Shown: positions 1-18,362 of the stretch, one piece after another | How positions within the stretch are numbered: position 1 is the stretch's first letter | Layout of the letters: each line of letters starts with the position of its first letter | Assembly (NCBI RefSeq): GCF_009674585.1 | Contig: NZ_WKJP01000001.1 | Span: 124,001 to 188,000, forward strand | Direction of reading: 5' to 3' | From: Haloferax marinisediminis | GTDB taxonomy: Archaea; Halobacteriota; Halobacteria; Halobacteriales; Haloferacaceae | DNA length: 64,000 nt | Notes under the pieces: generated by a model | The model's database searches: none | What the model was told of the DNA's origin: nothing | Seen by the model: only the letters and a program-made list of their open reading frames with translations | Made by a program: the position numbers and the translations under genes

Positions 1-1
1 A

Positions 2-955: not shown

Positions 956-1000
956 GCGAGACGAGTCCTGAAACCACGTGAGCGTGATTCACAGCACCCG

Positions 1001-2014
1001 TTAGGGAGTAATCACAAGTTTGCCGACGCTCTCGCGGTTCTGCATGGCAGCGAAGGCGTCACCAGTCTGCTCCAGTAGGTAGGTGTCGTCGATGATGGGC
1101 GTCAACGCCCCCTCGGCAACCAGTTCGACGAGCGTCTCGAGGTCCGTCTGCGTGCCCATCGTACTCCCGATGACTCGTTTGTGTCCGAGAAACAGGTCTG
1201 CGATGTCGATATCAGAGAACTGCCCGGCAGTACGGCCACAGACGACCATCCGCCCACCGCGTCGAAGGACGTCGAGTCCGAGTCCGGTGTACGCACCACC
1301 GAGGTGGTTCAACACTGCATCCGGGGTTCCGATGGCCTGGACTGACTCACGGAGGTCGTCCGGGTCCGTGCCCTGGATTGCGTGAGCAAGGCCGATGCCT
1401 TCCAGCTGGTCGAGTTTGTCGCGGGATGATGATGTCCCGATTGTTCGGGCACCGAATATGCTCGCGAGTTGGACGCCAGCGACACCCACGCCACCAGTTG
1501 CACCCGGAATGAATACGAGGTCGGTTGGCCCAACGCGAGCCCGGCGAAGCATCTGATACGCAGTCATGTACGCCGTCGGAAGTGCGGCAGCCTGTGTCAT
1601 CTCGACGCTATCAGGAAGGGTGACAAGACGGGCTGCCTCAACACAGGCAGCCTCTGCAAGGCCACCGTGATACAGTGAGTACGATTCACAAAGATTCTCG
1701 GGACCCTCGCGACAGAATCGACAGACTCCACAGGTCTCGTTCGGGCAGAGGACCACACGGTCGCCCGGGGTGACTGACGTGACGTCGTCACCGACCGCAC
1801 GGACCTCTCCAGCGAGGTCCAGCCCGCTCACGAACGGCAGGTTATCTGCGGTGACCATCGCAGAGTCACCCTCGAGAATCCACAGATCGTGCCGATTGAT
1901 CGAGGCCGCTTCGACATCGACAACCGCCTCGGTCGGTCCGGGTTCGGGGGTTGGTTGCTCGATAAGCGAGACTCCGTCAGGGCCGATGAGGTCGGTGAAG
2001 GCTGCGGCACGCAT
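1001..2014 (-). CDS. Zinc-dependent alcohol dehydrogenase / quinone oxidoreductase family (MDR)
   Basis: A 337-aa medium-chain dehydrogenase/reductase. The open frame extends upstream, but the start at 2014 gives the standard N-terminus MRAAAFTD. The catalytic GroES-like domain carries an SINRHDLW segment and the structural zinc loop CGVCRFC followed by a fourth Cys. A Rossmann nucleotide-binding segment GATGGVGVAGVQ follows near residue 170. Family members oxidise alcohols or reduce enones with NAD(P)H; the substrate cannot be read from sequence. It is alone, with accessory genes on both sides, and its upstream region holds copy 1 of the 28-bp repeat. Confidence 0.9.
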   Translation of the reverse strand: MRAAAFTDLIGPDGVSLIEQPTPEPGPTEAVVDVEAASINRHDLWILEGDSAMVTADNLPFVSGLDLAGEVRAVGDDVTSVTPGDRVVLCPNETCGVCRFCREGPENLCESYSLYHGGLAEAACVEAARLVTLPDSVEMTQAAALPTAYMTAYQMLRRARVGPTDLVFIPGATGGVGVAGVQLASIFGARTIGTSSSRDKLDQLEGIGLAHAIQGTDPDDLRESVQAIGTPDAVLNHLGGAYTGLGLDVLRRGGRMVVCGRTAGQFSDIDIADLFLGHKRVIGSTMGTQTDLETLVELVAEGALTPIIDDTYLLEQTGDAFAAMQNRESVGKLVITP

Positions 2015-2151
2015 CGGGCTGGTATTCGGGAACCACGGCAATATGAGTAGTGACGGCCTCACGAAACCGGGGAGGACTGAAAGGGGCTGCGGCGAGCACG
2101 AAGACGGCCGACGCAAGGACCACAGGCCGCAGGCCGAGGACCGCAGCGAGG

Positions 2152-2179
2152 CCCTCGAGTGGTCGTCGCGGGGGCTTTC
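2152..2179 (+). repeat. 28-bp direct repeat, copy 1
   Basis: An exact 28-bp match, beginning CCCTCGAG and ending GGGGGCTTTC, to 3880-3907. The two copies bracket the two-gene cassette at 2273-3798. It lies in the GC-rich upstream region of the dehydrogenase gene, next to other CGCAG-rich sequence that resembles dispersed haloarchaeal intergenic repeats. It may be an attachment or recombination site, or one member of a genome-wide repeat family. Confidence 0.85.
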
Positions 2180-2272
2180 AGAGGGGCGTCTGACTATCGC
2201 TGTCCCTACTGAGACACCAACTATCTGCGAATCCACATAGCAATTTTATGCATTGTCTGAGTTGACTAGGAT

Positions 2273-3244
2273 ATGAAAGGAGACGAAGAGCCACCCGATT
2301 GGAAGTGTCTTGACCCGTGGTGGAGCGCGTTCACAGCGTCGGGTCCTGTTGCAAATGTCTCCATTCCAGCACGAGTGGTCGGCATGGATCACCTCGCCGA
2401 CCTTTGGGACGAACTCGACTCATGGTGGGACACCTACTCCGAGACTGGGACTGAAACAGCAGTCCAACTCGCTGAGCACCTCCGCCAGTCCAATCGAGAC
2501 TGGACCACTGCTGCCGCGCCGTTCGACACCGACCCGTTAGCTGTGGATCTCACACGAGACCGGATACGTCGAGGGCCGCTGCAGCCGAGTACCGAAGTCG
2601 GGTGGTCGCGGTGGCTTGCGCAGGTGTTGCGCCCGTCTGCAGCCCTCAGTACTGAACTGTTTGACCGTCCAGAGGGGCAGCCCCCACAAGAGGTCATCTT
2701 AGAAGACACGCTACCGAAATCAGATGGGTCGTCCAGGAGACCGGACATCCTCCTCTTGTATGACGACTGTGGCGTCTCAATCGAGGTGAAGCTCGATGAT
2801 GAGAACTACCAAAAGACAGCTGAGACAGCGGCACTCGTCGAAGCGTATTACGACGACCTCGAGTGGTCGCACTATCTCCTCCTCCCGAAGCGAAAGATGA
2901 GTCGTCTCGACGCCATCGTCGAACCGTTACTCACCGAGTTGCCTGATGGTCGAACCGAGATTGCGTGGGACGACCCAGGCCCAGTCACTGTGTTACACTG
3001 GCGTGATGTTACCACCGCGATTCGAACGCTCCTGTATCATGCTGACATCGTCGACGACCACTGGGGGGCCAACGCGTATCTGTTCTGTGCGGTCGCTGAG
3101 CAACAACTCTTGAAGTTCCAATCGCAACCGGTGATTGAACAGCTGGCAGCCCCTGCGACCGTCGTCAACACAGCCCGTCCGATTCGGATTGCACACACAC
3201 TCGGCGAACAACTAACATATCTCCGTGAGAGGGTGTTTCCATGA
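2273..3244 (+). CDS. PD-(D/E)XK nuclease-like protein, first gene of a two-gene cassette
   Basis: A 323-aa protein with a restriction-endonuclease-like core: RRPDILLL supplies Asp158, and VSIEVKLDD supplies Glu171 and Lys173. Together they make the D-(x)n-ExK signature on adjacent beta strands. The N-terminal 150 residues are unassigned, and the C-terminus (about 240-323) is mostly helical. A TATA-like AATTTTATGC lies about 25 nt before the ATG, fitting a leaderless start. Its stop overlaps the next gene by 4 nt, so the two are surely co-translated. A DNA-targeting, possibly defensive role is inference. Confidence 0.7.
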   Translation: MKGDEEPPDWKCLDPWWSAFTASGPVANVSIPARVVGMDHLADLWDELDSWWDTYSETGTETAVQLAEHLRQSNRDWTTAAAPFDTDPLAVDLTRDRIRRGPLQPSTEVGWSRWLAQVLRPSAALSTELFDRPEGQPPQEVILEDTLPKSDGSSRRPDILLLYDDCGVSIEVKLDDENYQKTAETAALVEAYYDDLEWSHYLLLPKRKMSRLDAIVEPLLTELPDGRTEIAWDDPGPVTVLHWRDVTTAIRTLLYHADIVDDHWGANAYLFCAVAEQQLLKFQSQPVIEQLAAPATVVNTARPIRIAHTLGEQLTYLRERVFP

Positions 3245-3798
3245 CAGACGAATTCCTCACGAAGGGGCTCGAAGAAGATCGCTATGTGAAGGCACTCCAG
3301 CTGGTCGACCAATTCGAGAGTGAAATCGAGGCGCTACTGTTTGAGTTCGATCAGCGGATGGTCGACCAACACCCCGACCTATTTGACTCGAGTACTGACC
3401 CGAACGTGAAGTCGCAACGAAGTTCTTCTGCGCTCGCAATCCACCGACTCAATCACTCGATGAAGGGGCCTCTGGCGCCGACTGAGGGGAAGGCGTACAC
3501 AATGAACGTCCATCTGTACTGGATGCCCCCGACCGAGTACGGTCGGACTGATATCGACGGCGCACTCCGTGCGTTTGGGTACAAGATCAAGCATGCTGAC
3601 CGGAGCATCGATACCCGAGTTGCTGAACAGACGCGGGCCGGTGACTGGTCCGTTGAGATGTCCGGAAACCCGTATGACAAAAATACGGTCTTTTATCGAC
3701 ACGTCAGCTCGGCTGCGGAGATCGAGGAGACTGCTGACATCCTCGTTCGTCACTTCTCTGAATTCGGTGATGAATATGCGATGTCTCCAGATGCGTAA
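3241..3798 (+). CDS. Hypothetical protein, second gene of the nuclease-like cassette
   Basis: A 185-aa acidic protein of unknown family that starts inside the stop of the preceding gene (ATGA overlap). There is no signal peptide or membrane segment. The first 60 residues look helical, and a mixed alpha/beta stretch follows from about residue 85. The tight coupling to the PD-(D/E)XK-like protein suggests a partner, specificity or antidote role; this is an inference from arrangement only. Copy 2 of the 28-bp repeat lies about 80 nt after its stop. Confidence 0.65.
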   Translation: MTDEFLTKGLEEDRYVKALQLVDQFESEIEALLFEFDQRMVDQHPDLFDSSTDPNVKSQRSSSALAIHRLNHSMKGPLAPTEGKAYTMNVHLYWMPPTEYGRTDIDGALRAFGYKIKHADRSIDTRVAEQTRAGDWSVEMSGNPYDKNTVFYRHVSSAAEIEETADILVRHFSEFGDEYAMSPDA

Positions 3799-3879
3799 CC
3801 GACGGTGACGCTGAGGGTGGGTTTCACCGTCCACTGTCAGTCATTTGGTGAGCATTCCGGTCACGCTTGATCACGCCGA

Positions 3880-3907
3880 CCCTCGAGTGGTCGTCGCGGG
3901 GGCTTTC
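3880..3907 (+). repeat. 28-bp direct repeat, copy 2
   Basis: Identical to 2152-2179 over 28 bp, with different flanking bases on both sides (G/A before, A/G after). It lies downstream of the two-gene cassette, in a gap of about 270 bp with no gene. Confidence 0.85.
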
Positions 3908-4067
3908 GACAACCTCGGTCCTTGTCCCTCATTCAGGACCATGGATGAGAGAACGCAGACGGCCCTTCCCCGAATCCTCCAGAACAACTCACCATCAGTC
4001 TCACGTGAATGACTGTCAAGCTAACAACGAATAAACATTAATTTTGTTACACGTTGTGTGGATAGAT

Positions 4068-4736
4068 ATGAAACTCGACCCAGTAATCGCCCAGCCTCCA
4101 CGGAGTTTGCACCGCGCCGCACTCAGGGAGGAAGCAGAACGCGCGGTGGGAACACGAGCGGATGTCGGGGTCGAAGAAGAGGAAGAAGAAGTTGAGAGAG
4201 AACTGGATGTCCTCGTCGATGAACACCGCCGAGAGTTGGACGCTGTCGGCGAACGGATGGAGTTCCCTGAAGACATGGCTGGCGTGAGTGACGCACTGTA
4301 CCAACTGAAAAACACCATCCCCACAGACGTGCTCATCCTCTGGGCAGCGGTTGAAGGGGCTGTCCGCCTGTACGGCCTCCCGTTCGAGGTGTACGTCGTG
4401 CTGGTCGCGTTCATTACGCTCGCGATGCCAGTGTACGTCTATCGAGCTATCAAGAAACCAGCGTCTCCGACGCTCGAAACCCCAGATGGCCAGTGGTGGG
4501 ATAACGCCAATTTCCAGTGGCAGAGCGTTCTCTCCGCAGGCGCGTTCCTTGTCTGGGTGTACTACCTTGGTGGACCGTTCGCGATGGCTGGCCTCCAAGA
4601 CCCAGGTATCGCGGCCGTCCTCGTCATCATCTATCCCGTAGTGATCGTCACCTCACAGTTCTACGGGAGTTACGTCATCTACCAACTCGAAAAGATCCGC
4701 AAGCCCGGAACTGAGCGGCCACAGGATACCGTTTGA
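4068..4736 (+). CDS. Small integral membrane protein with acidic N-terminal helix
   Basis: 222 aa from the ATG at 4068. That start is chosen because a TATA-like TAAACATTAATTTT lies about 25-35 nt upstream. Residues 1-75 are soluble and very charged, with a run of seven glutamates, and are likely coiled coil. About four hydrophobic segments follow, roughly 87-103, 105-125, 148-170 and 173-198. The C-terminus is short and charged. No family is recognised. Membrane proteins of this size are common in haloarchaeal plasmids and proviruses. Confidence 0.6.
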   Translation: MKLDPVIAQPPRSLHRAALREEAERAVGTRADVGVEEEEEEVERELDVLVDEHRRELDAVGERMEFPEDMAGVSDALYQLKNTIPTDVLILWAAVEGAVRLYGLPFEVYVVLVAFITLAMPVYVYRAIKKPASPTLETPDGQWWDNANFQWQSVLSAGAFLVWVYYLGGPFAMAGLQDPGIAAVLVIIYPVVIVTSQFYGSYVIYQLEKIRKPGTERPQDTV

Positions 4737-4768
4737 ACGCGTTGTGAAAATGCGTGTCTCATGGTGCA

Positions 4769-6034
4769 TCAGTCCCGTCTGAACCACCGAACTAACCACC
4801 ACCCATCATCGTCTGTGTCGTCTGCCGCTGCGACCTGCGCTTCTAATTCACGTCGCCGTTCGCGTTCGGCTTCCAACTCCGCTTGTAGTCGCTCGTTCTC
4901 TTCGAGCACTGATTCGAGGTGTGTCTGAAGGTCGTTGAGTCGCTCCAGGTGCGCAGTCTCGCGAGCGCGTGCCGCTCGGCCCACGTCCGCCGCTGACGCC
5001 TCTTTCTTCGTCCCATCTATCGCAGCATCGTCGTCACGCTCTCTCGTTCGCTTTCGAGAGCCACCTTTCCGCGTCGTCGATCGCCGGACTGCACTGGAAA
5101 ATCCAGACGGGTCGTAGTATTCGGTCGTCCCTGCGATTGCTCTCTCGATTGTCTTCTCGCCGTAGGTCGACCCATCTGCGTAGTGCACCTCGTCCCATTT
5201 CTCTCGGTACAGTCTTGAGTCGCGTACCAGGCGATCCATCTGCTGTGCGTCGCCCCCGGTCCAGAACGCCAGGATCGAACTCAGTGCCATGTCAGCCTCT
5301 GAGTGACTGTCGTATGCGCCCGCGTCGCCTTTCCACAGGCGGCTGAATTTCAGGCCGTTGGCCGCGTTCGACGCTCGTTTGACTATGTCTTCGTCTGTGA
5401 GGCCGTTGCCTGTGAGTGTGGCGTCTTGACCGCCTGTCTCCGGTTCGACAACCCCGACTGTCGTCTTGGATGGTCCGCTGTTCGATGCTGTGTCTGGTGT
5501 CTCGAAGTACGCTGCGTGCAGCGCGGTGAGTTCGGCTGTCCGGTCTTCGATGTCGTTCGATGGGCCGTCAACCCGCTCGCCTGTCACGGTGAAGAAGCGC
5601 GCCTGGTCGTACAGTTCGAGGTTTCCTGTTCGGTTGCCGTCTGGGGGGAGGTCTCCGTTGATGATGATGTGATACCCCGTTCCCGAGGGGCTCACTTCCG
5701 TGTACGAGTCCATCCGGTCGATGATCATCTGCGACCATTCTTCGGTCTCGCCCGTCTCGCTGTCGCGACACTTGTCCAGGTCGATTCCCACGTACGGGTC
5801 GTCGTCGGTGAACACGAATCCCACGCCGTCTGCGTTCCCCGCTTCGGCGTATGCTAGTGCCTCGTCGAACGTTGTCCACGTCTTCGCGTCTGTCGCCGAC
5901 GCGTACCCCCCGGTCACGTCCTGTGGAACCTTCGTTTCAGCTCCAGTTCTCGTCTGTTTGCGCCACCCTACCCACTGGGCTCGTTCACAGAGGTCATCTG
6001 GGAGTGCGTCGCGCGTGGGGAGTGGTGGTGTCAT
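4769..6034 (-). CDS. Archaeo-eukaryotic primase-polymerase (PrimPol) of plasmid/virus type
   Basis: 421 aa. The AEP catalytic core shows the metal-binding pair Asp85/Asp87 (YVGIDLDKC), the SPSGTGYH motif at 115-122 that places the catalytic His122, and ARFFTVTGE at about 145-153 for nucleotide binding. Residues about 215-305 (ADMALSSILAFWTGG ... YGEKTIERAI) match the helix-bundle domain that follows this type of polymerase, as in NrS-1-like enzymes. Residues about 345-405 form a charged coiled coil, and the protein ends in a Trp-rich tail. Such proteins initiate replication of extrachromosomal elements. The TACACCC motif cluster lies directly upstream of its start. Confidence 0.85.
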   Translation of the reverse strand: MTPPLPTRDALPDDLCERAQWVGWRKQTRTGAETKVPQDVTGGYASATDAKTWTTFDEALAYAEAGNADGVGFVFTDDDPYVGIDLDKCRDSETGETEEWSQMIIDRMDSYTEVSPSGTGYHIIINGDLPPDGNRTGNLELYDQARFFTVTGERVDGPSNDIEDRTAELTALHAAYFETPDTASNSGPSKTTVGVVEPETGGQDATLTGNGLTDEDIVKRASNAANGLKFSRLWKGDAGAYDSHSEADMALSSILAFWTGGDAQQMDRLVRDSRLYREKWDEVHYADGSTYGEKTIERAIAGTTEYYDPSGFSSAVRRSTTRKGGSRKRTRERDDDAAIDGTKKEASAADVGRAARARETAHLERLNDLQTHLESVLEENERLQAELEAERERRRELEAQVAAADDTDDDGWWLVRWFRRD

Positions 6035-6966
6035 TGCTTGTGTGAGTGTCTCGGTGGAGGTCTAGTAGGTGTTTCGCGCCCGTACACCCTGCTCGATTTT
6101 GGCTGGTTTTCTACACCCTTTTGGGTATTTACCCCCTTCCGTCTCACCCGCTACACCCCCCGTCTTCAGGGGTGTACACCCACGCCATTTTCCCGCAAGG
6201 GTGTACTCGTCCTGGACGCGTCATGGGTGTACGACCACACCCTCGATGTCGGCGGCTGCCCTGTACTCGCGCTCGGCGATTCCCTTGTTTCTGGACTCGA
6301 GCGCCCTCATTGCCGGGTTTCTCACGTTGACGACCGCTGTGTCTCTGTCGTCGTCTGCCCTGGTTTTCCGGTTTCTGACGCCCGTCTCACACCCCTCAAA
6401 CCCGGTACACCCTATCGTTAGTGGGGTGTATCGCCTGTTTTGGATGTGGCGTGTTGCCTGGTTTTTCGCTTCTTTGGTGCCCGCTTCCCCCTCGCTCGTC
6501 GCCCCGGTTCTCCCTTCTCGATTGCTGCCCACACCCCACTTTCTCTCGACGCTTACGCCCTGTGTCCCAGGTTCGTCTCGACTGGAAGGGCAGGGGTGTT
6601 TCGATGCATACGACTCGCCGTTTTTTTCGATGGCGCCTGGGTGTGGCTGAGCGATGGCAACCAAGGGTGTTGTTGCGGGGAATAGGAAGGGTGTACTCCA
6701 GTGGAACCAAAGGTAGGTTGTGAAACCCATATCGAGTCCAAGAACGAGCAGGCGAGACCACCATCGTCGTCGCAACCCCACGAACCCAGACAGACCTGAC
6801 AATCGTCGTTCGGCCAGTGTGATGGCGCGGATGCGGAGGACCCACGAAATCGTTTTCCACCCTCTTTTGACAATTGTTAACGTCCCACACATCGAATGAC
6901 TACCTAGTGCTCGAGTCGGAGGCAAGAGGAGACCGTCACCGAAGACGAGCGCTACGGAGTAAGACA
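6035..6966. other. Non-coding stretch of about 0.9 kb upstream of PrimPol
   Basis: No convincing gene is present. Open frames here encode basic, Cys/Arg/Trp-rich peptides unlike the acidic local proteome. A minus-strand frame ending at 6221 has a more plausible last 50 residues but no good start. The stretch holds the TACACCC cluster and probably the promoter for the PrimPol gene on the minus strand. Confidence 0.6.
6083..6695. repeat. Iteron-like cluster of TACACCC/GGGTGTA motifs, candidate replication origin
   Basis: The 7-mer TACACCC or its complement occurs at 6083, 6112, 6152, 6175, 6406 (forward) and about 6170, 6199, 6225, 6424, 6689 (reverse). Several copies extend to TACACCCT. The copies at 6170-6181 form the perfect palindrome GGGTGTACACCC. 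The copies at 6152-6159 and 6169-6176 can form a hairpin with a 9-nt loop. The cluster begins just upstream of the PrimPol start. Repeated short motifs beside a replication gene are the usual form of iteron origins; copies of this motif elsewhere in the window are isolated. Confidence 0.65.
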
Positions 6967-8380: not shown

Positions 8381-8746
8381 TCAGGCCGTGACGATCTCGT
8401 CTTCGAGGCTGGCGACTGCGTCGAGTACCTCGTCGATTTCGTTTTCCTCGACGTCGAACTCCTCCAGTGCGTCCTTGAGGTGCGTCGCCGTCGCCGCGAA
8501 GTCGTCGTGTGACAGCTCCAGGTGTTCGTGTGCCTCGCGCATGTCGGCGCCCGTGTAGTCGACAGGGCCGCCGGCCACAGCGCTGATGAACTGCACCTGG
8601 TGGGCTCGTTGTTTCTGCATGTCCGTGTCTTCGAAGTACGGTGCGAGCTCGTCGTCCGCCAGCATCCGGTCGTAGAACTCGTCGACGACTGCAGAGATAG
8701 CCTCTTTCCCGCCAAGTCTCTCGTAGAGAGTTTTATTGCCCGACAT
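8381..8746 (-). CDS. Truncated haemoglobin (group I-like)
   Basis: 121 aa with the 2-on-2 globin pattern: LYERLGGKEAISAVVDEFYDR at the N-terminus, YFEDTDM, then QVQFISAVAGGP, and a later helix containing AHEHLELSHDDF whose His is the likely proximal ligand. Truncated globins bind O2 and NO and often dioxygenate NO to nitrate. The gene is divergent from the H-NOX gene, with 179 bp between the starts. CTTATCAAA on the minus strand, 25-33 nt before the ATG, could be its TATA element. Confidence 0.9.
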   Translation of the reverse strand: MSGNKTLYERLGGKEAISAVVDEFYDRMLADDELAPYFEDTDMQKQRAHQVQFISAVAGGPVDYTGADMREAHEHLELSHDDFAATATHLKDALEEFDVEENEIDEVLDAVASLEDEIVTA

Positions 8747-8925
8747 TAACCGGATATTAAGTTACTCTTTGATAAGCTTACCCCGGAGTGTCACTTAACT
8801 GATTGAAAATATTTTATACGATTACGTAACATATTGCTCCCAGCGTGATAACGACCACTTTCCCCGCGTCCCTGACACGGGCACCCCAGCAATCGATGGC
8901 GCGAACACTCGGAGGGCGTTGAGTC
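8747..8925. promoter_or_regulatory. Divergent promoter region for haemoglobin and H-NOX genes
   Basis: The 179-bp gap is much more AT-rich than its surroundings. Toward the right an AAAATATTTTATACG element (about 8806-8820) can serve as a TATA box for the H-NOX operon. GGAGGG at 8911-8916 is a Shine-Dalgarno sequence 9 nt before the GTG start. Toward the left a TATA-like element supports a leaderless haemoglobin transcript. Shared control is plausible. Confidence 0.55.
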
Positions 8926-9477
8926 GTGCACGGAATCGTCCTCAACCAGTTGAAAAGCTTCGTCGTCGAGACGTACGACCGCGACACGTGGGCGACGTTA
9001 CAACAGGAGGCGGGCCTCCCGGGCAAACTGTACGTTCCAGTGACCGAGTACCCCGACGAAGACGTTCTCGCACTCGTCGAGACGGCATCTGAACTGACGG
9101 AGATACCCATCCCTGACTTGCTCGAAGCGTTCGGCGAATTTCTGGTACCGCCACTCCTCGAAACGTACGGCGTCCACGTCGACAAAGACTGGACCGGGCT
9201 CGAACTCATCGCGAACGTCGAGCGGTACATCCACATCGCACTCCGGGCGAAACAGGTTTCGACGTACACACCACCCGAACTCGAATCGGGGTGGCGAGAC
9301 AACAATACGGTCAGCCTCGTCTATCAATCAGACCGTCAACTGTGCCACCTCGCGAGAGGCATCATCACAGGTGTCGGCGACCACTTCGACGAACCGTTCG
9401 AGATCGAAGAACCGGTCTGCATGCACGAGGGTGACGAGTACTGCGAACTCCTCGTTCGACACGCCGAAGCAGCCTAA
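8926..9477 (+). CDS. H-NOX (haem NO/O2 binding) sensor protein
   Basis: 183 aa starting at GTG, supported by a good ribosome binding site. The N-terminus MHGIVLNQLKSFVVETY matches the H-NOX start. The haem-pocket signature YxSxR is present as YQSDR (Tyr133, Ser135, Arg137). His103 lies exactly 30 residues before Tyr133, the spacing I recall between His105 and the YxSxR tyrosine in soluble guanylate cyclase beta1, so it is the likely proximal ligand. The C-terminus carries CMHEGDEYCELLV. H-NOX proteins signal through partner transducers, and the next gene is a chemoreceptor, so a role in gas taxis is the natural inference. Confidence 0.85.
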   Translation: MHGIVLNQLKSFVVETYDRDTWATLQQEAGLPGKLYVPVTEYPDEDVLALVETASELTEIPIPDLLEAFGEFLVPPLLETYGVHVDKDWTGLELIANVERYIHIALRAKQVSTYTPPELESGWRDNNTVSLVYQSDRQLCHLARGIITGVGDHFDEPFEIEEPVCMHEGDEYCELLVRHAEAA

Positions 9478-9686
9478 CGAACCCTCCAGACGTGGTCGTC
9501 GCCAGCAGATTCACCATCTGCGTGGCACTCGAACCCATCTGAGACTCGACCGAACGAGCGTCAGCCCTCCGATAAAATCGACCGTTTAGCGCCGCTTAAT
9601 CCGTCATATAATGCCAGAATAGTTTGGAAAGAAGACTGTCAGTACTGTGCGAAGGTTTATAGTATCAGATGAGACATTCGTGGCAT

Positions 9687-11720
9687 ATGGTAGATATACT
9701 CGGTCTCCTTCTACCTAGGTTCATACGCCGACGGTACCCACTTCGGTTCGGAGTGGTACTGGGCGGTATCGGCGTTCTCGTCGGTGCCGTGGGTCTAGGT
9801 GTGGGGCGAACAACAACGTATCAAGTCCCGACGGAGGTCGTCGCTGCGGCCGCCGGGGGTATCGTCGTGAGCGGGGTGCTCGGCGGGCTGATGGTCAGAA
9901 GCACGATGAAATCGGTCGACTCCATCAGTTCGAGCACCGAGACGATGCGCGACGGAAACCTCGACGTCGAAGTCGAGAACGGTCGAATCGACGCTGTCGG
10001 CCGGCTTTCGGAGTCGATTGCTGGCTTCCGCGACGCCGTCGCAGAACGGCTCGAGCAGACGAACTCCGACCACGAACAACTCGAGACGGAGCTTCGCAAG
10101 GTCGAAGGTGTCGCTGACCACTACAGCGGTGAACTCGAAGCGGCCCTCGACGACCCCTCGCTTCGTGTCGATACCAACGCCCCGAACGAGGCGATGGCCG
10201 CGCTTGCGAGGGCAACCAACGACGTTCTCGACGCACGAGAAGACCGAGTCGACGAACTCGCAGACGTGCGTGAGCAGGTCGACGCACTCCACGCAGAGCG
10301 TGACCGACTGGACACCGAGAACCAGCAGCTGAAAGCCATGGCGGGCGAGTACGCCGAGGTTCTCAAGGCGTGTGCTGACGGTGACCTCTCCCAGCGGATG
10401 GACGAAGACGTCGAAAACGAGGTCGCGTCCAGATTCGCCGCCCAGTTCAACGAGATGATGACCGAGTTCGAACAGACCACGGTCAAAGCCGAGAACTTCG
10501 CGAAAGAGGTCGCGACACTGAGCAACGAAGTCACAGTGAGTGCGACCGAAGTGCGCGAAGGGAGCGAACAAGTCTCCGGCAGTCTCCACAGCATCTCCAA
10601 CGTGGCAGAGACCCAGTACGACAACCTGGAGTCGGTCGCCATCGACATGAGCAACCTCTCTGCGACCATCGAGGAGATCGACGACTCGTCGAGTGACGTG
10701 GCCGAGATTGCCCAACAGACGGTCGAAACCGGCCGCGAAGGGCGAGAAGCCGCGACGGAAGCAATCAAGGGGATGAAAGAGATCGAGCAGGAGTCCGTCG
10801 ACACGGTCGAAGAGATCGAACGACTGGAGTCCGAAGTGCAGCAGATCGACGACCTCATCGACTTCATCCGCGAAATCGCAGAGCAGACGAACATGCTGGC
10901 GTTGAACGCCAACATCGAAGCGTCCCGTGCCGGTGAGTCCGGTCAGGGCTTCGCCGTGGTCGCCCGCGAAATCAAGGAACTCGCAGAGGGGACCAAGGAC
11001 GCGGCCGCAGACATCGAGACGCGACTCGAAGAGATTCAGTCGCAAACCTCCCAGACGGTGGCAGAAGTTCGCGACACGCGAGAGCAGATTGCGCGACACA
11101 CCGACTCCGTCCAGAACGCTGCGGAGGCACTCAACCAGATTGCCGAGAACGCACAGGAGACCAACACTGGTGTCCAGGAGATCAGTTCGGTGACGAGCCA
11201 ACAGGCGGACGCTACGCAGGCAGTCCTCTCTGCGGTCGACGACGCGACCGAGACTAGTGCCGAGACGGTCGAAGAGGCATCGGCAGCGGCGACAGGTGCC
11301 GAACAGCAGACGCTTGCACTGTCTGCAGTGTCGGACAGCGCGAGTGCGCTTGCGACGCAGGCGAACCGCCTCAACGACACGCTCGACCAGTTCAAGACCG
11401 AGATGGCCGTCACAGTGCCGGCCGACGAAGACGCTGGTGAAGCCGACGAGGCTGACCCACTGGAATCCGACGAAGACGTTGGCGAAGCCGACGAGGCTGA
11501 AGACGTTCTGGCTGACGCAGACGGTGACGACCCACTGGCCGAAGACCCGCTGGCCGAAACGCCCGCTTCGGACGAGTCGACGTTCCGTTTCGACGGGGAG
11601 CCCGGCGACGAAATCGACTTCGACGAGGTCGAATCCGACGTGGAACTGGCCGACGAAGCCGAGGGAGAACCGAGCGACGAGACCGAAGAGTCGCCTGTAG
11701 ACAACACCGCGGAGCGATGA
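9687..11720 (+). CDS. Methyl-accepting transducer without extracellular sensor domain
   Basis: 677 aa from the ATG at 9687. TTTATA at 9656-9661 lies 26 nt upstream, which favours this start over the ATG at 9669. Two adjacent membrane helices (about 18-38 and 47-67) are separated by only some eight residues, so there is no ectodomain. HAMP-like segments follow (70-120 and about 220-270), then a long coiled-coil signalling domain with the hairpin tip [19 protein letters not shown]. The C-terminal 100 residues are an acidic, repetitive tail. Input must come from inside the cell or membrane; the H-NOX protein encoded just upstream is the obvious candidate. Confidence 0.92.
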
Positions 11721-11763
11721 TGCAATCGAAGCTACCGTCTCTCTGCTCAGAAGGGGTGAGCAG

Positions 11764-12267
11764 ATGAGCGAACAGTCGGCCGACGTTGGCGGCGGTGACA
11801 CCGTCGCACCTGAGTCGGTCATCGAATTCCTCGAGTTCCGTCTCGATGGAGACCGATACGCACTGGAGTTGGGCCGGGTGGGGCAAGTCATCTGGAAACC
11901 TGCGATTACTCGTGTTCCGAACGCCCCCAACGGAATCTACGGGTCGGCGACAGTCGAAGGCGACGTCGCCGTCGCCGTCGATACGTACGCAGTCGTCGAC
12001 TGTGAGCGGCCGTTTTCTGACCCCGAGGACGCGTACCTCGTTCTCTTAGACCGTCAGGAGACGCCGCAACTCGTTGGCCTCCTCGTCGAAGCGGTCGACG
12101 GAATCTATCGACACCACGTCGATACGGTGTCTCAACTGACGGACGGAGACGTCCCACTCGACGACCGCTGGTTTAGGGCCGTAATCGAAGATGGCGAGAC
12201 GCCCGACATACACGTCTTCGACAGCCATCAACTCATCGCGGCCATCCACCCACTGGAAGCACGATAA
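11764..12267 (+). CDS. CheW-like chemotaxis coupling protein
   Basis: 167 aa with one CheW domain: IEFLEFRLDGDRYALEL begins the first SH3-like barrel, ITRVPNAPNGIYG follows, and QLVGLLVEAVDGIYR is in the second barrel. It links the transducer to CheA. The sequence is more divergent than typical archaeal CheW, with TVEGDVAVAVD replacing the usual RG-rich loop. It lies 43 nt after the transducer and 70 nt before cheY. Confidence 0.88.
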   Translation: MSEQSADVGGGDTVAPESVIEFLEFRLDGDRYALELGRVGQVIWKPAITRVPNAPNGIYGSATVEGDVAVAVDTYAVVDCERPFSDPEDAYLVLLDRQETPQLVGLLVEAVDGIYRHHVDTVSQLTDGDVPLDDRWFRAVIEDGETPDIHVFDSHQLIAAIHPLEAR

Positions 12268-12337
12268 CACGATTTACGAAACAGACAGACACAGACAGAT
12301 GATCACAACCGAACCGAGGTTCACGTAGGACGCACAC

Positions 12338-12715
12338 ATGTCAATCGGGATTCTAATCGTCGACGACTCAAGCTACATGCGAAGTAGGCTCAAGAGCGCG
12401 CTCGACGATGACACGTACGAAATCGTTGACGAAGCACAGAACGGCGCATGGGCAGTGCAGAAGTACAAAGAACACGGCGATGACATCGACATCGTCTTGA
12501 TGGACATCGTGATGCGAAAGGCGAACGGTGTCAAGGCGACTGCCGCCATCAAGCATCTCGACAAAGACGCCCGCGTCATCATGTGTACGAGCGTGGGACA
12601 GCGGAAGAAGATGGAACTCGCCGCCCGGGCAGGCGCAGACGGCTACATCACGAAACCGTTCGACGACGACGAAATCGTCCGAGCCATCGAGAGTATCCTT
12701 TCCGACGAATCATGA
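12338..12715 (+). CDS. cheY: Chemotaxis response regulator CheY
   Basis: 125-aa stand-alone receiver domain. The acidic pocket is at ILIVDDSSYMR, the phosphoacceptor Asp in VLMDIVM, the switch Thr in CTSVGQ and the Lys in ITKPFDD. Phosphorylated CheY acts on the archaellum motor through adaptor proteins in archaea. It is followed by cheA after 55 nt; cheB, which often sits here in haloarchaea, is missing. Confidence 0.95.
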   Translation: MSIGILIVDDSSYMRSRLKSALDDDTYEIVDEAQNGAWAVQKYKEHGDDIDIVLMDIVMRKANGVKATAAIKHLDKDARVIMCTSVGQRKKMELAARAGADGYITKPFDDDEIVRAIESILSDES

Positions 12716-12770
12716 GACACAGAGAGGTACCGCCCACGAAAACCGTCGTCAGTAATCGCGGGAGGCCGCC

Positions 12771-15700
12771 GTGAGCCGAAACGACGAATTCGTCCGCGAG
12801 ACGCGGACGTCCGTGCGACAACTGACGAACGGACTCGTCGAACTCGAACGAGACGGAAGCAGTCGGGAACTGGTAGACGACCTGTTCCGGACGGCGCACA
12901 CGCTGAAGGGGAACTGCAGTATGGCCGGTCTCGACGGTGCGAGTCGGCTCGCCCACGCAGTCGAAGACTTCCTCAGCGGTCTCCGTGACGGGTCACTGGG
13001 TCCGAACCCAGACCTGATAGACGCCGCACTCGCAGCAGTCGACGACATCGACGCGATACTCGACGAGTGGGCCGACGGAGACACCGTCGAAACCGACCCC
13101 GAGTCGTCGGTGTCGGCGCTCCGCACGGAGATGGAACGCTACCGAGGTGACCCGGGTGCGAGCGACGAGATGGCATCACGGGACGCAGACGCGCCGAGTC
13201 CAGAGTCGATGCCCGACCCGGACACGGCGGAGTTCGACCCGACAGTCGTCGATGCGCTCGAATCCGCGAGCGGGTTCGACGACCTCGAAGGGTTGCTCGC
13301 CGAGATGGACGACCCCGATGTGGACGAAGACGAAGCGCAGTCCCGCTGGGGGACGTTCGACAAGCGTGACGCTGACGACCCGTCGGCGGGTCACGGTTCG
13401 GCAGGGAGCTCTCAAAACGAGTTCGACGCCATCAAAAGCGGCGTCGACACGGACGACGTCTCGTCACTCGACCGCGAACTCGTCGAAACCGAATTCGGCG
13501 AGTTCGACGACGACGACCAGCTCTCGATTCAGGACCTCATCGAAGGCGAAGTCGCCGGCCCTGACGTGGAGGACGAAGACGCAGACCAGTCGGACGACGC
13601 CGACGCAACCGCCGACTCGTCGAGTTCGACAGTCAGCGCCGACGCCGACACGGCAAACGACGCCATTCGCCCCGAAGACTTCGGCTACACCGCTGCTACC
13701 TCGTCGGCCAGCGACGACACCCCAGTGAGTGCAGACGAGGGTGCATCAGAGACGCCAGCGGGTGCGACTGCATCCGGAGCCGACGCGGCAAACCCGTTCG
13801 AAGGCGCCGACGTCGTCGACCCCGACGAAGACCCGGCAGACGACGGCGTCTCGGTAGCAGGCGAGTCCGACGTGGCCACCGAACAGCCAGCCTCGACAGA
13901 ATCTGTCGACGCAGACCTCGAACGCGAGGGAGAAGACGACGCAGAAATCTCGTTCCCCGACGGCAAGTCGTTCGACCCCGAGAGCGAGGAGTCGTCCGCG
14001 TCTGAGGAACCGGCGCTCGGATTCTCCGCAGACAATGCATCCGAGGCGTCGGACGACAGTCCCGACGACTTCGAGGAGTTCGACGACGCTCCCGACCCCC
14101 TCGACGACGTCTCCGACGAGTTCGACCTCCCAGACGAGGGTGCCGACGGACCCGGACACTCCGAAGAGATTACCGAAGACGACCTCTCCGGCGAGTTTGG
14201 AGACGACAGTTTCGACCTCGCAGACGACGACCAGCAGGGCGACATCTCCGACGAGGACCTCGGCATCCCCGAGGACTTCCTGAGCGGTGGTATCGACCTC
14301 GACGTCGGGCAGACAGCGAACGACTCGGCGAGTTCGGCAGACGACGCCGGGTTGTCGGTCGAACGCGGAGTCGAGGGACTCGACCTTCCAGACATCGACC
14401 TGCCAGACGTCGACGAACTCTCTGGCGCATCCCTCGCCGACGAGTTCGACGGGAACTCGGCCGCCGACGTCTCGTTCGAACGGGACGAACACACGATGGC
14501 GTTCGAGTCCCGCTTCGCCGAGCGATTCGGTGGCAGTGTCGGCGACGACGACGTCCAACTCCTCCAGGTTGCCTCCTCGACGATCGAGGAGAGTAGCCTC
14601 GATGCCGCCAGATACCAGTCCAGCGGGACCGCGTCGTACCCACCCGACTTCGGTGACACGCGAGAGACCGACCAGATTCAGTCGCTCACCGTCGACGTCC
14701 AGAACGCGGACTCGCTTTTGAACCTCGTCGAAGAACTGTCGCTGACGCAACTGCGCATCAAACAGTCCGACGGAGAGGACATCGACGACCACCTGTCGGT
14801 GATGGATTCGGTGACGGCCGAACTCCGGCGCGCCGTGATGAATTTACGCCTCATGCCGCTTTCGACGGCCATCGACGGACTCCCACGAGTCGTCCGCGAC
14901 ATCGCACGCAAGCAGGACAAACAGGTCTCCTACGAAGTGTCCGACGAGGGTGTCAACCTCGACCGAAGTATCGTCGAGAAACTCGGCGACCCACTCGTCC
15001 ACCTCGTTCGGAACGCCGTCGACCACGGCATCGAACCGCCGGAAGAGCGCACCCGACAGGGCAAGAAACCGGAGGGGACCGTCGAACTCAGAGCACGACG
15101 AGACCGCGAACACGTCGTCATCGAAGTCGAAGACGACGGTCGGGGTATCAGCGCCGAGCGAATCCGACAGCAAGCGATCGACAACGACATCATCTCCAGA
15201 GAACGGGCCGAGCGCATGTCGTTCGACGAGGTGTACGACCTCGTCTTCGAACCCGGCTTTTCGACCGCAGACGAGGTCACCGACGTCTCCGGCCGTGGTG
15301 TCGGCATGGACGCCGTCAGGCGAACCATCAACTCGCTGGAGGGGACCGTCGAACTCACGAGCGAGTCGGGGTCGGGAACGACGGTCCGCATCCGTCTTCC
15401 CGTCTCGATTGCCGTCGCGAAGATGCTGTTCGTCCGCGTTGGCCACGAACAGTACGCGATTCCGGCGAGTGCCGTCGAAGACGTCGAAATCGTCGACGAA
15501 GACAGCCTCTCCGACGACGGGTTGGTGGCTGTCGACTGGCCCGAACACGTCACAGACCGCCCCGACCGCATCCCGCTTCTCCGTCTCGGGAAGGTGTTAG
15601 GTGTGGAAGACGCGGCCAGTGGTTCCGGGACGACCGACTCCACCGACAACCAGTCCGGTGCGTCCGAATCGACCGCCGCGGGAACCGCACAGGCGGACAA

Positions 15701-15902
15701 ACGCTCGCACAGCAAACGCGTGCTCGTCCGACTGGACCCCGCGACGCGGGAACTCGCACTGCTCTGTGACGAAGTCGACGACGCCCGTGAAGTCGTCGTC
15801 AAACCGTACGAGAAACTGCTCGGCGACGTGCCCGGAATCAGTGGCGCGACGATGAGTGGGGATGGAACGCTTGTGAACATCGTAGACGTGACAACACTAT
15901 GA
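12771..15902 (+). CDS. cheA: Chemotaxis histidine kinase CheA with very long acidic linker
   Basis: 1043 aa from a GTG start preceded by GGGAGG. Domains: Hpt at about 1-125 with the phosphorylated His43 in AHTLKGN; an Asp/Glu/Ser-rich low-complexity linker at about 130-635; the dimerisation domain starting at SLTVDVQNADSLLNLVEEL; the ATPase with N box LVHLVRNAVDHGIEP and EDDGRGIS; and a CheW-like regulatory domain from about 880. CheA enzymes are usually about 650-700 aa, so the extra length is all linker. No separate CheY/CheB-binding P2 domain is recognisable. It overlaps cheC by 4 nt. Confidence 0.95.
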   Translation: MSRNDEFVRETRTSVRQLTNGLVELERDGSSRELVDDLFRTAHTLKGNCSMAGLDGASRLAHAVEDFLSGLRDGSLGPNPDLIDAALAAVDDIDAILDEWADGDTVETDPESSVSALRTEMERYRGDPGASDEMASRDADAPSPESMPDPDTAEFDPTVVDALESASGFDDLEGLLAEMDDPDVDEDEAQSRWGTFDKRDADDPSAGHGSAGSSQNEFDAIKSGVDTDDVSSLDRELVETEFGEFDDDDQLSIQDLIEGEVAGPDVEDEDADQSDDADATADSSSSTVSADADTANDAIRPEDFGYTAATSSASDDTPVSADEGASETPAGATASGADAANPFEGADVVDPDEDPADDGVSVAGESDVATEQPASTESVDADLEREGEDDAEISFPDGKSFDPESEESSASEEPALGFSADNASEASDDSPDDFEEFDDAPDPLDDVSDEFDLPDEGADGPGHSEEITEDDLSGEFGDDSFDLADDDQQGDISDEDLGIPEDFLSGGIDLDVGQTANDSASSADDAGLSVERGVEGLDLPDIDLPDVDELSGASLADEFDGNSAADVSFERDEHTMAFESRFAERFGGSVGDDDVQLLQVASSTIEESSLDAARYQSSGTASYPPDFGDTRETDQIQSLTVDVQNADSLLNLVEELSLTQLRIKQSDGEDIDDHLSVMDSVTAELRRAVMNLRLMPLSTAIDGLPRVVRDIARKQDKQVSYEVSDEGVNLDRSIVEKLGDPLVHLVRNAVDHGIEPPEERTRQGKKPEGTVELRARRDREHVVIEVEDDGRGISAERIRQQAIDNDIISRERAERMSFDEVYDLVFEPGFSTADEVTDVSGRGVGMDAVRRTINSLEGTVELTSESGSGTTVRIRLPVSIAVAKMLFVRVGHEQYAIPASAVEDVEIVDEDSLSDDGLVAVDWPEHVTDRPDRIPLLRLGKVLGVEDAASGSGTTDSTDNQSGASESTAAGTAQADKRSHSKRVLVRLDPATRELALLCDEVDDAREVVVKPYEKLLGDVPGISGATMSGDGTLVNIVDVTTL

Positions 15903-16552
15903 CCGAACTGAATCAATCAACGACGGGACAGCACCGAATCGACATCGAAAAACTCGGCGTCTTGAACTACCTCGGCGAGTTGGGCGTCAGTGGTGTCGAA
16001 TCTCGACTCGGAAAGTTGGCCGGCAAGTCGACGGCCGTCAGGTCAGAAGTCGTCAAGAACGGATTCGTCGACGAATCGACCGTCGATTTGGCGTTCGACG
16101 CCGAGAAGCGACTGGGCGTCAGGGTCGGCCTCAACGGCGTTCCGCACGGGTGTATACTCGTGTTGTTCCCGCCAGCGAGTGCGAAGCGCGCCGTCCGAAT
16201 GATGCTCGCAGACACGAACGAAGACGTGGCCGATGTGTCGAACGACATGGCGGTCAGTTCCATCGTCGAACTCGGCGGGATGGTGGCAAACGGGTTCCTC
16301 GACGCGCTCGCCGACACGTTCGACCAGCACATCGCGACGTGGCCGCCGGTGACGCGGAACAGCGAACTGCCACAGATTATCGAGCGAGCAGTCACCGACG
16401 AAGAAGACAGAGGTCTGTACCTCGAAACAAAGTTCCACATCACGAGTCACAACATCGACGTCGAACTCTACTTGTTCCCAGAAAACGAGGTGTTCGTAGA
16501 GATTCTGAACCGCCTCGACATGGACGCAGTCACCGAGGGGGCTGACACGTGA
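15899..16552 (+). CDS. CheC-family protein, single domain, catalytic Asn missing
   Basis: 217 aa, ATGA overlap with cheA. CheC/CheX/FliY phosphatases use a [D/S]xxxExxN(x22)P helix motif. Here S120 and E124 are present, but the Asn position is Gly127. The protein may therefore be a scaffold or CheD-binding form rather than a CheY-P phosphatase. The family signature is otherwise clear, with VASSIVELGG-like helix and GLYLETKFHI strand. The next gene encodes a double CheC, so the operon carries three CheC-type domains. Confidence 0.85.
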   Translation: MTELNQSTTGQHRIDIEKLGVLNYLGELGVSGVESRLGKLAGKSTAVRSEVVKNGFVDESTVDLAFDAEKRLGVRVGLNGVPHGCILVLFPPASAKRAVRMMLADTNEDVADVSNDMAVSSIVELGGMVANGFLDALADTFDQHIATWPPVTRNSELPQIIERAVTDEEDRGLYLETKFHITSHNIDVELYLFPENEVFVEILNRLDMDAVTEGADT

Positions 16553-17847
16553 AGCTGAACGTCAACGCACTGGGGACCTTCTACGAGATGGCCCGCGAGG
16601 GTGCCGGACTCGCGGCCACTCGCCTGAACTCGATGTCGGAGTTCGAGAGTCGTGTGAAAGTGACGCGACTCCACTTCACCCACCGGTCGGAGATCCGCAA
16701 CGAACTCGATGATGGCTCCGAGAAAGTCGGCATTCGTGTCTCGATGGACGGCGAACTGTCGGGCACCTCCCTCCTGTTGTTCGACCACGAGAGCGCACTC
16801 TCCGTCGCCGGAGCGCTCGTCGACGACGTCGACGACGAACCGACCAACGAACTGGCGACGAGCGCCATCGTCGAACTCTGTCACATCATGAACAGCGGAT
16901 TCGTCGACGGGTGGGCAGACGTCCTGCAGGCCGAAATCGACGTCGACGCCCCCGAGTACGTCATCGGTGATACGGCGGGCGCATTCATCGACGAAGACGA
17001 GTTCGGTAACATGCACGAGGAGTTGGCGCTCGTCTTCCAGAGTCAAATCGAGACGACGGGAACCGAGTTCGGATTCGAACACTACCTCATCCCCGAACAC
17101 GAGTCAATCGCTCGACTGTTCGAGACGCAGACGGACGACGAGGGCATCGAGTACGAGAAACTCGCCGGATTCGACCAGATGGCACAACACGGGGCCACGC
17201 GCGTCGCCGAGAACCTCTCGCGGATGACCGGAATCGAGATGGACGTCGATATCCGCCGCATCAACTTCATCTCGCTCGACGCCATCCCAGAGACAGTACC
17301 GAACGAACCGCTCGTCAGCGTCGCGTTCAGTTTCAGCGGCACGCTCGGCGGCTATCTCCTGTTCCTGTTCGACCCAGAGTCAGCGAACGAACTCGTCGCG
17401 GCCACGGTCGGTGACTCACCCGGCGGCGGGTTGGGTGCGTTCGAACAGGACGCCATCAAAGAGTTGAGCAACGTCATGACGAGCGGTCTACTCGACGGGT
17501 GGGCGAACATGCTCGACGCCACCATCGACCACTCGACACCCGCGTACTCACACGACATGGGTGCGGCCGTCGTCGACCCGCTCATCGTCGGCCTGAGTGA
17601 AGTCCAGGAGTTCGCGTTCGTCTTCGACACGCGCATCCACGCCGTCGACCGAGAGTTCGACGTCGACATCTACGCGATACCCGACGAGACGGACCTCGAA
17701 GCAGCGCTGGACCGCCTCGACGCGAGACGTATCGACGAGTCACTCTCACACGACGTTGAGGAGACGGAGTTCGAAGCACGAGAGTTCGACGCCGACCTCG
17801 TCGAAGAGATTGCCGCTGGCACGTTCGAGGAGGTCGAAGAGCTATGA
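16549..17847 (+). CDS. Double-domain CheC-family CheY-P phosphatase
   Basis: 432 aa, GTG start overlapping the previous stop by 4 nt. There are two CheC repeats. The first helix motif has S105 and E109, but His112 in place of Asn. The second has D301, E305 and N308, followed by Pro after 22 residues, an exact match to the phosphatase motif. Only the second repeat should be active against CheY-P. Both repeats carry the conserved SGxxDGWA segment. The gene is translationally coupled to cheD. Confidence 0.88.
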   Translation: MKLNVNALGTFYEMAREGAGLAATRLNSMSEFESRVKVTRLHFTHRSEIRNELDDGSEKVGIRVSMDGELSGTSLLLFDHESALSVAGALVDDVDDEPTNELATSAIVELCHIMNSGFVDGWADVLQAEIDVDAPEYVIGDTAGAFIDEDEFGNMHEELALVFQSQIETTGTEFGFEHYLIPEHESIARLFETQTDDEGIEYEKLAGFDQMAQHGATRVAENLSRMTGIEMDVDIRRINFISLDAIPETVPNEPLVSVAFSFSGTLGGYLLFLFDPESANELVAATVGDSPGGGLGAFEQDAIKELSNVMTSGLLDGWANMLDATIDHSTPAYSHDMGAAVVDPLIVGLSEVQEFAFVFDTRIHAVDREFDVDIYAIPDETDLEAALDRLDARRIDESLSHDVEETEFEAREFDADLVEEIAAGTFEEVEEL

Positions 17848-18362
17848 AGACGTTCGACTTCGGCACCGACGAAGAGGAAGCGACTCGCGAAGAACGACTC
17901 GTCGGCGTCTCTGGATACCACGTCACGAGCGAGGGTGAGACGCTCATCGCCTACGGGCTCGGGGCGTGTGTCGCAATCGCCCTCTGGGACACCGACAGCA
18001 AGGTCGGCGCACTCGCGCACACCCTCTTACCCCGGCAGGAAAGCGGCCTCGGTGCCTCTTCAGGAAAGTACGTCGATGCCGCCATCCAGACCATGCTCCG
18101 CGAGATGGTCGAAGAAGGTGCAGGCTACTCGTCTATCGAAGCACGACTCGTCGGCGGCGCGGACATCTTCGAACTGAAGGCTCTCGGCAAGGGCGTCGGT
18201 AAGAAGAACGCCTCCGTCGCTCGCGAAGAGTTGGCGAGACTCGACGTCCCAATCGTCGCCGAGTCCACCGGTGGCGAACACGGGCGAACCGTCGAATTCG
18301 ACACGGCAACCGGGCGACTCGAAGTCACGACCGCCCACTCCGACGACGTCGAAGTGCTGTAG
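17844..18362 (+). CDS. cheD: Chemoreceptor glutamine deamidase CheD
   Basis: 172 aa. The catalytic residues are visible: Cys42 in GLGACVAIALWD and His59 in GALAHTLLP. The KGVGKKNA segment typical of CheD follows. CheD deamidates glutamines in receptor signalling domains and exchanges between receptors and CheC, which stimulates the CheC phosphatase. Here it overlaps the double CheC by 4 nt and ends the operon. Without CheB and CheR nearby, the CheC/CheD pair may be the main adaptation system of this array. Confidence 0.93.
   Translation: MKTFDFGTDEEEATREERLVGVSGYHVTSEGETLIAYGLGACVAIALWDTDSKVGALAHTLLPRQESGLGASSGKYVDAAIQTMLREMVEEGAGYSSIEARLVGGADIFELKALGKGVGKKNASVAREELARLDVPIVAESTGGEHGRTVEFDTATGRLEVTTAHSDDVEVL

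Follow-up and report, generated by a model that had tools for sequence, protein, structure and literature searches.

Several chemosensory systems of bacteria, among them Frz, Dif and Wsp, serve alternative cellular functions with an output other than flagellar taxis, and in the sensory rhodopsin-Htr pairs of haloarchaea, such as SRI-HtrI, the sensor is a separate protein beside a transducer whose ectodomain is small or missing. In archaea there is no evidence for chemotaxis systems that regulate other type IV pilus systems (PMC4858521), and in the library that we searched we found no paper that demonstrates a target besides the archaellum for an archaeal Che system, and none on H-NOX or its signalling in haloarchaea. 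The gene cluster analysed here would, if our reading is true, be a case of both. It encodes a haem sensor of the H-NOX family, a transducer (methyl-accepting chemotaxis protein, MCP) and a set of Che proteins, and it lies in a 64-kb stretch at 124-188 kb of contig 1 of the Haloferax marinisediminis genome (hereafter the window). We lean towards reading it as a dedicated chemosensory pathway gated by nitric oxide (NO), the output of which is probably not the archaellum.

The gene cluster and its distribution

Families were assigned to the window genes by Pfam profile matches, and each gene listed in an earlier, sequence-only reading of this DNA proved real and located where that reading had placed it:

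8381-8746, minus strand: group 1 truncated haemoglobin (trHb), HbN-like (PF01152, E 5.5e-26)
8747-8925, no strand: globin/H-NOX intergenic region, predicted to hold the divergent promoters (alignment of five homologous regions)
8926-9477, plus strand: H-NOX (HNOB), GTG start (PF07700, E 2.7e-33)
9669-11720, plus strand: transducer (MCP), alternative start at 9687 (PF00015, E 2.5e-37)
11764-12267, plus strand: CheW (PF01584, E 6e-14)
12338-12715, plus strand: CheY of divergent type (PF00072, E 8.9e-27)
12771-15902, plus strand: CheA with Hpt, HATPase and CheW domains (PF01627/PF02518/PF01584)
15899-16552, plus strand: CheC-type protein, single domain (CheX/CheC family matches)
16549-17847, plus strand: two-domain (double) CheC (PF04509, E 7.9e-12; NF041093, E 1.6e-31)
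17844-18362, plus strand: CheD (PF03975, E 3.9e-25)

The 4-nucleotide (nt) overlaps that had been described for most of the genes are confined to the last three junctions (CheA/CheC, CheC/double CheC and double CheC/CheD). Elsewhere the genes are separated by 43 nt (transducer/CheW), 70 nt (CheW/CheY) and 55 nt (CheY/CheA), and the gap between H-NOX and transducer is about 190-210 nt depending on the start (about 191 nt with the start at 9669). No gene for CheB, CheR or CheF was found inside the window cluster. The cluster is the second Che system of a genome that holds nine MCPs and one HNOB gene; the other CheA is encoded at contig position 2.30 Mb, in a Che locus with CheR and two CheF proteins and with four archaellin-type genes nearby.

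The distribution of the cluster was followed in 391 haloarchaeal genomes by searching about 8 kb on either side of each HNOB locus for neighbours. HNOB is present in 85 of these genomes, and the full H-NOX-MCP-CheW-CheY-CheA-CheC-CheD module was found at 12 distinct loci in two gene orders. The genome sample yielded the window, G078, H. marinum (G245), G262, Halocatena marina (G277), Actinarchaeum halophilum (G183), G383 and G373, and the named scan yielded Salinigranum salinum, strain YIM A00013, strain LT46 and Halorussus aquaticus; in G262 the cluster is interrupted by a contig break, and its H-NOX contig matches Haloferax profundi. The genera concerned are Haloferax, Salinigranum, Halorussus, Halocatena and Actinarchaeum, and this recurrence in other genera places the gene cluster far beyond chance. 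Four loci of the Halorussus type have a permuted order with CheY-CheA-CheC first, and two tandem H-NOX genes occur in Halocatena and in three of these four. A bare H-NOX-transducer pair, the genes mostly overlapping by 4-8 nt or nearly touching, was found in 23 other haloarchaeal genomes. Of 15 genomes of the window genus four carry H-NOX, and precisely these four encode a second CheA (80-82% identical). Co-occurrence of H-NOX and Che genes in relatives, on which the sequence-only reading had staked itself, is borne out, and the module is conserved and apparently undescribed.

H-NOX as the predicted input of the transducer

In the window transducer the two hydrophobic helices, at residues 23-48 and at 53-71, follow one another almost directly, as had been noticed from its sequence, so that there is no ectodomain; its HAMP match is weak (E 0.0027). 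An ectodomain is likewise missing from every transducer adjacent to H-NOX (34/34), 32 of which are membrane hairpins while two lack membrane helices altogether. In the nearest relative cluster without H-NOX (L248, genome G156) the che genes are the same and the transducer extends outside the membrane by about 310 residues, and the other membrane MCPs in the eight cluster-bearing genomes mostly have ectodomains of 230-260 residues, one or two being hairpin-like. The adjacency of H-NOX and hairpin transducer spans at least four families, with gene overlap in one family, and H-NOX and MCP are encoded by separate genes, not as one polypeptide, in the window and in the relatives examined. The proximal haem histidine is kept in 33 of 34 transducer-linked H-NOX proteins versus 12 of 84 unlinked ones (Fisher p 4e-18), a contrast that holds when sequence clusters are counted instead (7/8 versus 7/29, p 0.002). 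It must be noted that L068, where an H-NOX without the histidine lies about 500 nt from an MCP carrying an ectodomain, was counted as linked by distance in the histidine comparison and as unlinked in that of transducer topology. Conserved adjacency, overlapping genes, ectodomain loss and histidine retention together argue that H-NOX is very probably the input of the transducer, in agreement with the earlier proposal that it supplies what the transducer lacks, and we infer a docking site on the part of the transducer that lies in the cytoplasm next to the membrane. The absence of a HAMP domain was also considered as a mark of H-NOX-linked transducers and was dropped, HAMP being weakly detected in 8 of 18.

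Further arrangements were seen. At L031, L033, L058 and L237 two tandem H-NOX genes precede one transducer, with the haem histidine in both copies where aligned, and such pairs are possibly hetero-dimeric or two-input sensors. The window encodes two more transducers (41261-43477, plus strand; 47494-48999, minus strand), of which one has an ectodomain, its membrane helices being separated by about 240 residues, and the other is soluble and carries a PAS domain. Elsewhere in the window genome, L194 (4816-6408) encodes a hairpin transducer with neither H-NOX nor another obvious partner gene, which may be an MpcT-like membrane-potential transducer.

By fold, profile and haem residues the window protein is assigned to the H-NOX (HNOB) haem proteins, and haem binding is predicted. 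The residue alignment gave His103, Pro117 and Tyr133-x-Ser135-x-Arg137, so that the histidine and the YQSDR motif pointed out in the sequence-only reading are both in place. The best solved sequence relative is the H-NOX of S. oneidensis (E 3e-23), and an AlphaFold model (predicted local distance difference test, pLDDT, 83.9) has as its top fold match 4u9b, the NO sensor of that species (template modelling score, TM, 0.90). A distal tyrosine is required in O2-binding H-NOX proteins (PMC8738867). Tyr140 of the Caldanaerobacter (Thermoanaerobacter) tengcongensis protein, the sequence of which was checked against 1u4h, aligns with Leu142 of the window protein, and none of 118 haloarchaeal HNOB sequences has a tyrosine at this position. 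In the absence of a distal tyrosine the predicted ligand is NO (or carbon monoxide) and not O2. Being a stand-alone H-NOX beside a signalling partner and lacking the distal tyrosine, the window protein is a candidate member of the NO-specific class and most likely reports NO. Of the earlier claim that the locus senses NO or O2, the NO part is consistent with this pocket and with the closeness to the S. oneidensis NO sensor; the O2 part is not upheld. Three cysteines of the window protein (Cys140, Cys165 and Cys173) match the zinc ligands Cys139, Cys164 and Cys172 of S. oneidensis H-NOX (PMC7108781); the triad is kept in all linked H-NOX proteins, and an invariant Glu162 occupies the position of S. 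oneidensis His161.

The globin has group 1 trHbs as its closest solved structures (M. tuberculosis HbN, 1idr, E 1.6e-24), and its family profile and group 1 relatives place it in the HbN group. It is likewise divergent from H-NOX in G078, H. marinum, H. profundi and Salinigranum; at the operon start of the four Halorussus-type loci it is CheY from which it diverges. The globin thus stands at the operon 5' end in two different gene orders, which substantiates its proposed link to the system, where it would probably clear NO. The alignment of the five homologous globin/H-NOX intergenic regions revealed a conserved GAAAATATTTTATAC block, the probable B recognition element (BRE)/TATA of the promoter on the H-NOX side.

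The Che proteins and their probable output

In a tree of 54 CheA sequences, in which the CheAs labelled f4 and f7 come from che-only loci, a 100/100 branch separates the CheAs of H-NOX clusters, together with that of L248, from all other haloarchaeal CheAs, archaellar and che-only alike; monophyly of the H-NOX CheAs themselves is not established by this tree (78/44). With the NCBI model CheY_Halo (cut-off 200 bits) the window CheY scores 146.6, cluster-type CheYs 134-147 and the others 204-210. With CheA_Halo (cut-off 950) the corresponding scores are 519.5, 471-523 and 753-857, and by these scores the cluster CheA and CheY fall outside the curated haloarchaeal chemotaxis equivalogs. Tree and profile scores alike place the two proteins in a lineage apart from the archaellar ones. 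The window CheA has the Hpt, N- and G-box motifs, and the window CheY keeps its phosphorylation residues while carrying Arg17 and Arg60 in place of Leu and Pro. In cluster CheYs generally, Asn16 and Leu17 of alpha1 are changed to Ser/Gln/Arg and to Arg, respectively, and Pro60 to Arg or Ala. These positions lie near the CheF contact described for CheY (PMC9126983), and the differences hint at another partner than CheF. The single-domain CheC-type protein lacks the ExxN phosphatase motif, which is found at residue 305 of the double CheC, within its second domain, and is conserved in relatives. Locus L248 (4488-13961), a che cluster of the window CheA/CheY type, has an HTH_10/BAT regulator gene just upstream (14224-14877), and its genome is without CheF.

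Halocatena marina (98% complete) and Actinarchaeum halophilum (94%) carry the full cluster as their only Che system, with the sole CheA, and their single MCP is the one linked to H-NOX. No CheF, archaellin or CheR was found in either genome. Of the catalytic and haem motifs that were checked in CheA, CheY, CheC and H-NOX of these two species, most or all are intact, and the proteins show no obvious decay. Both species are of the non-motile clade with hyphae and spores that includes YIM 93972 and Halocatena, for which loss of the archaellum, of motility and of the PilB3 pilus system is reported (PMC10067837), and a text search of that paper gave no mention of chemotaxis genes. A complete set of receptor, CheW, CheA and receiver is therefore kept in Halocatena and Actinarchaeum where there is no archaellar motor, and phosphorylated CheY (CheY-P) must there act on another target. 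Class-wide, CheF is found in 234 and CheA in 321 of the 391 genomes. CheF is missing from 23 of 31 genomes with an H-NOX-MCP pair versus 65 of 290 other CheA-positive genomes (p 1.3e-8, ignoring kinship). The 88 genomes with CheA and without CheF show that Che systems lacking the known archaellum adaptor are common, and che loci apart from archaellum genes have already been noted in the Natrialbaceae (PMC3403918). Steering of the archaellum, as proposed in the sequence-only reading, is contradicted in these relatives and by the separate CheA/CheY lineage, and finds no support as what the cluster does in general; its signal probably goes elsewhere than to the archaellum, or at least not to the archaellum alone.

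The pathway that we favour would run as follows. NO would bind the His103-ligated haem of H-NOX, as the conserved residues suggest, and the freed histidine with moving subdomains would alter the docking of H-NOX on the membrane-proximal cytoplasmic part of the transducer. The transducer with its own CheW would, as in other members of the family, set the activity of its own CheA, which would phosphorylate its own CheY, and shut-off and adaptation would proceed through CheC (the ExxN motif of the double CheC) and CheD and not through CheB and CheR. The target of CheY-P in Halocatena and Actinarchaeum would be non-archaellar, e.g. a surface structure, a cell-shape factor or a developmental factor, and in Haloferax it may be other than the archaellum. 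With slightly less than even confidence, one may propose further that the system governs cell differentiation or life on surfaces: in haloarchaea of the non-motile clade that makes hyphae and spores it is the sole Che system, and in the swimming Haloferax and Halorussus it would be a channel parallel to, and separate from, the archaellar one.

Several observations weigh against this pathway. The cluster-bearing members of Haloferax and Halorussus are archaellated and have CheF, so that taxis is possible there. Most of the cases in the CheF comparison come from one family, and its statistics ignore kinship. The CheY surface residues are weakened as proof of lost CheF binding by the che-only CheYs of CheF-less Natrialbaceae, which keep the ordinary residues (PMC3403918). 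Own denitrification is not a general source of NO, NirK being present in G000, G078, G262 and G373 and absent or weak in G245, G277, G183 and G383, the latter four being half of the eight cluster genomes; denitrification was accordingly rejected as the reason for the cluster, and NO may come from outside. The cysteine triad makes an additional redox input possible, and haem loading, ligand and docking are all things that we infer.

The strongest competitor accepts the same sensing chain and lets CheY-P act via the CheF of the genome on the archaellum, so that cells swim from or towards NO. The window genome has archaellins and two CheF proteins, the cluster CheY keeps its phosphorylation residues, and HemAT and HtrVIII are precedents for gas taxis in haloarchaea (table in PMC3579733). 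However, the full cluster persists in Halocatena and Actinarchaeum where archaellum, CheF and any other MCP are gone, it brings its own CheA and CheY despite the ordinary ones in the cell, and the deviations of its CheY, in alpha1 and in the loop around residue 60, fall close to the CheF contact (PMC9126983). We consider NO taxis unlikely.

No conserved output gene was found beside the cluster in its flanks. Type IV pili were considered and rejected as the output: PilB/PilC/pilin-like genes lie just upstream in G078 and H. marinum only, a 20-kb stretch upstream of the window (L270) has none, nor have the Salinigranum, Halorussus-type and Halocatena/Actinarchaeum flanks that were fetched, which points to local synteny. 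The flank that holds this pilus-like gene cluster in G078 and H. marinum holds in the window (region 1-6800) a gene for a protein with an NrS-1-polymerase-like domain (4769-6034, minus strand), and the region is probably a mobile element with local rearrangement in the window strain.

Other readings of H-NOX and comparison with known systems

H-NOX could also work mainly through its cysteine triad, a zinc site turning into disulphides, with haem in a secondary role. The conservation of the triad in all linked proteins, with Glu162 for His161 (PMC7108781), is in keeping with such redox or zinc sensing, as are the many haloarchaeal HNOB paralogues that have the triad and lack the haem histidine, and this mode of action has been shown for haem-free V. 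cholerae H-NOX. But it is precisely the transducer-linked proteins that keep His103, Pro117 and YxSxR, which a haem-free sensor would not need, and we regard this alternative as improbable. O2 taxis, known from the Caldanaerobacter fusions that are the classical H-NOX-MCP proteins (PMC8738867), is very improbable given the leucine for Tyr140 and the lack of a distal tyrosine across the haloarchaeal sequences. Equally hard to sustain is an MpcT-like membrane-potential sensor with H-NOX a mere neighbour doing another job: MpcT is a two-helix transducer reporting membrane potential in Halobacterium (PMC3579733) and the window genome encodes a hairpin MCP that has no H-NOX beside it, but adjacency in at least four families, gene overlap in one and a membrane-free transducer at two loci speak for a partnership.

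The histidine-less HNOB proteins are a subject of their own. At 72 of the 84 HNOB loci without an adjacent MCP (L073-L141; e.g. L085, 7828-8367, and L112, 8125-8664) the proximal histidine is replaced by Tyr, Ala, Thr or Val, while the three zinc-site cysteines are mostly retained, and the five such loci that were checked all adjoin a gene resembling phosphoribosyl pyrophosphate (PRPP) synthase. Set against the absolute conservation of the histidine in 598 H-NOX sequences (PMC7108781), these proteins look like a haem-free subfamily. At L071 (7987-9298) an H-NOX of the haem-histidine type overlaps a 261-residue gene product with a weak HAMP match, in which no MCP signalling domain was detected.

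Halocatena and Actinarchaeum offer a clean natural experiment: archaellum, CheF, CheR and all MCPs but its own are missing, and the pathway has apparently remained intact. The locus makes it possible to test in culturable strains whether archaeal CheY-P has roles beyond the archaellum and whether NO is an archaeal signal, and H-NOX with its hairpin transducer is a simple two-gene system in which to study the control of a chemoreceptor by a soluble haem sensor.

Among described systems, the C. tengcongensis H-NOX-MCP fusion shares an H-NOX feeding a methyl-accepting transducer, the same fold, the haem histidine and YxSxR. The present system is archaeal, is encoded by separate genes, has an NO-type pocket and has its own complete CheA/CheY set. 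The H-NOX/HnoK pairs of S. oneidensis and V. cholerae are closest in sequence and structure (2kii, 4u9b) and share the stand-alone H-NOX beside its partner and the cysteine triad, but the partner there is a sensor histidine kinase whereas here it is a chemoreceptor array. The locus resembles SRI-HtrI in that a separate sensor adjoins an ectodomain-poor transducer and HemAT in haem gas sensing by a transducer, and differs from both in its soluble H-NOX sensor, its separate CheA lineage and its persistence without an archaellum. The cheYBACCDR genes of Natrialba magadii (Nmag_3145-3151; PMC3403918) likewise form a second che locus in a haloarchaeon, separate from the fla genes; they include CheB and CheR, their CheA and CheY group with the archaellar ones, and there is no H-NOX in the locus. 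With Frz, Dif and Wsp the system would share a complete receptor-CheW-CheA-receiver set with a non-taxis output, kept in cells without flagella, and it is set apart from them by being archaeal and by its predicted haem gas input.

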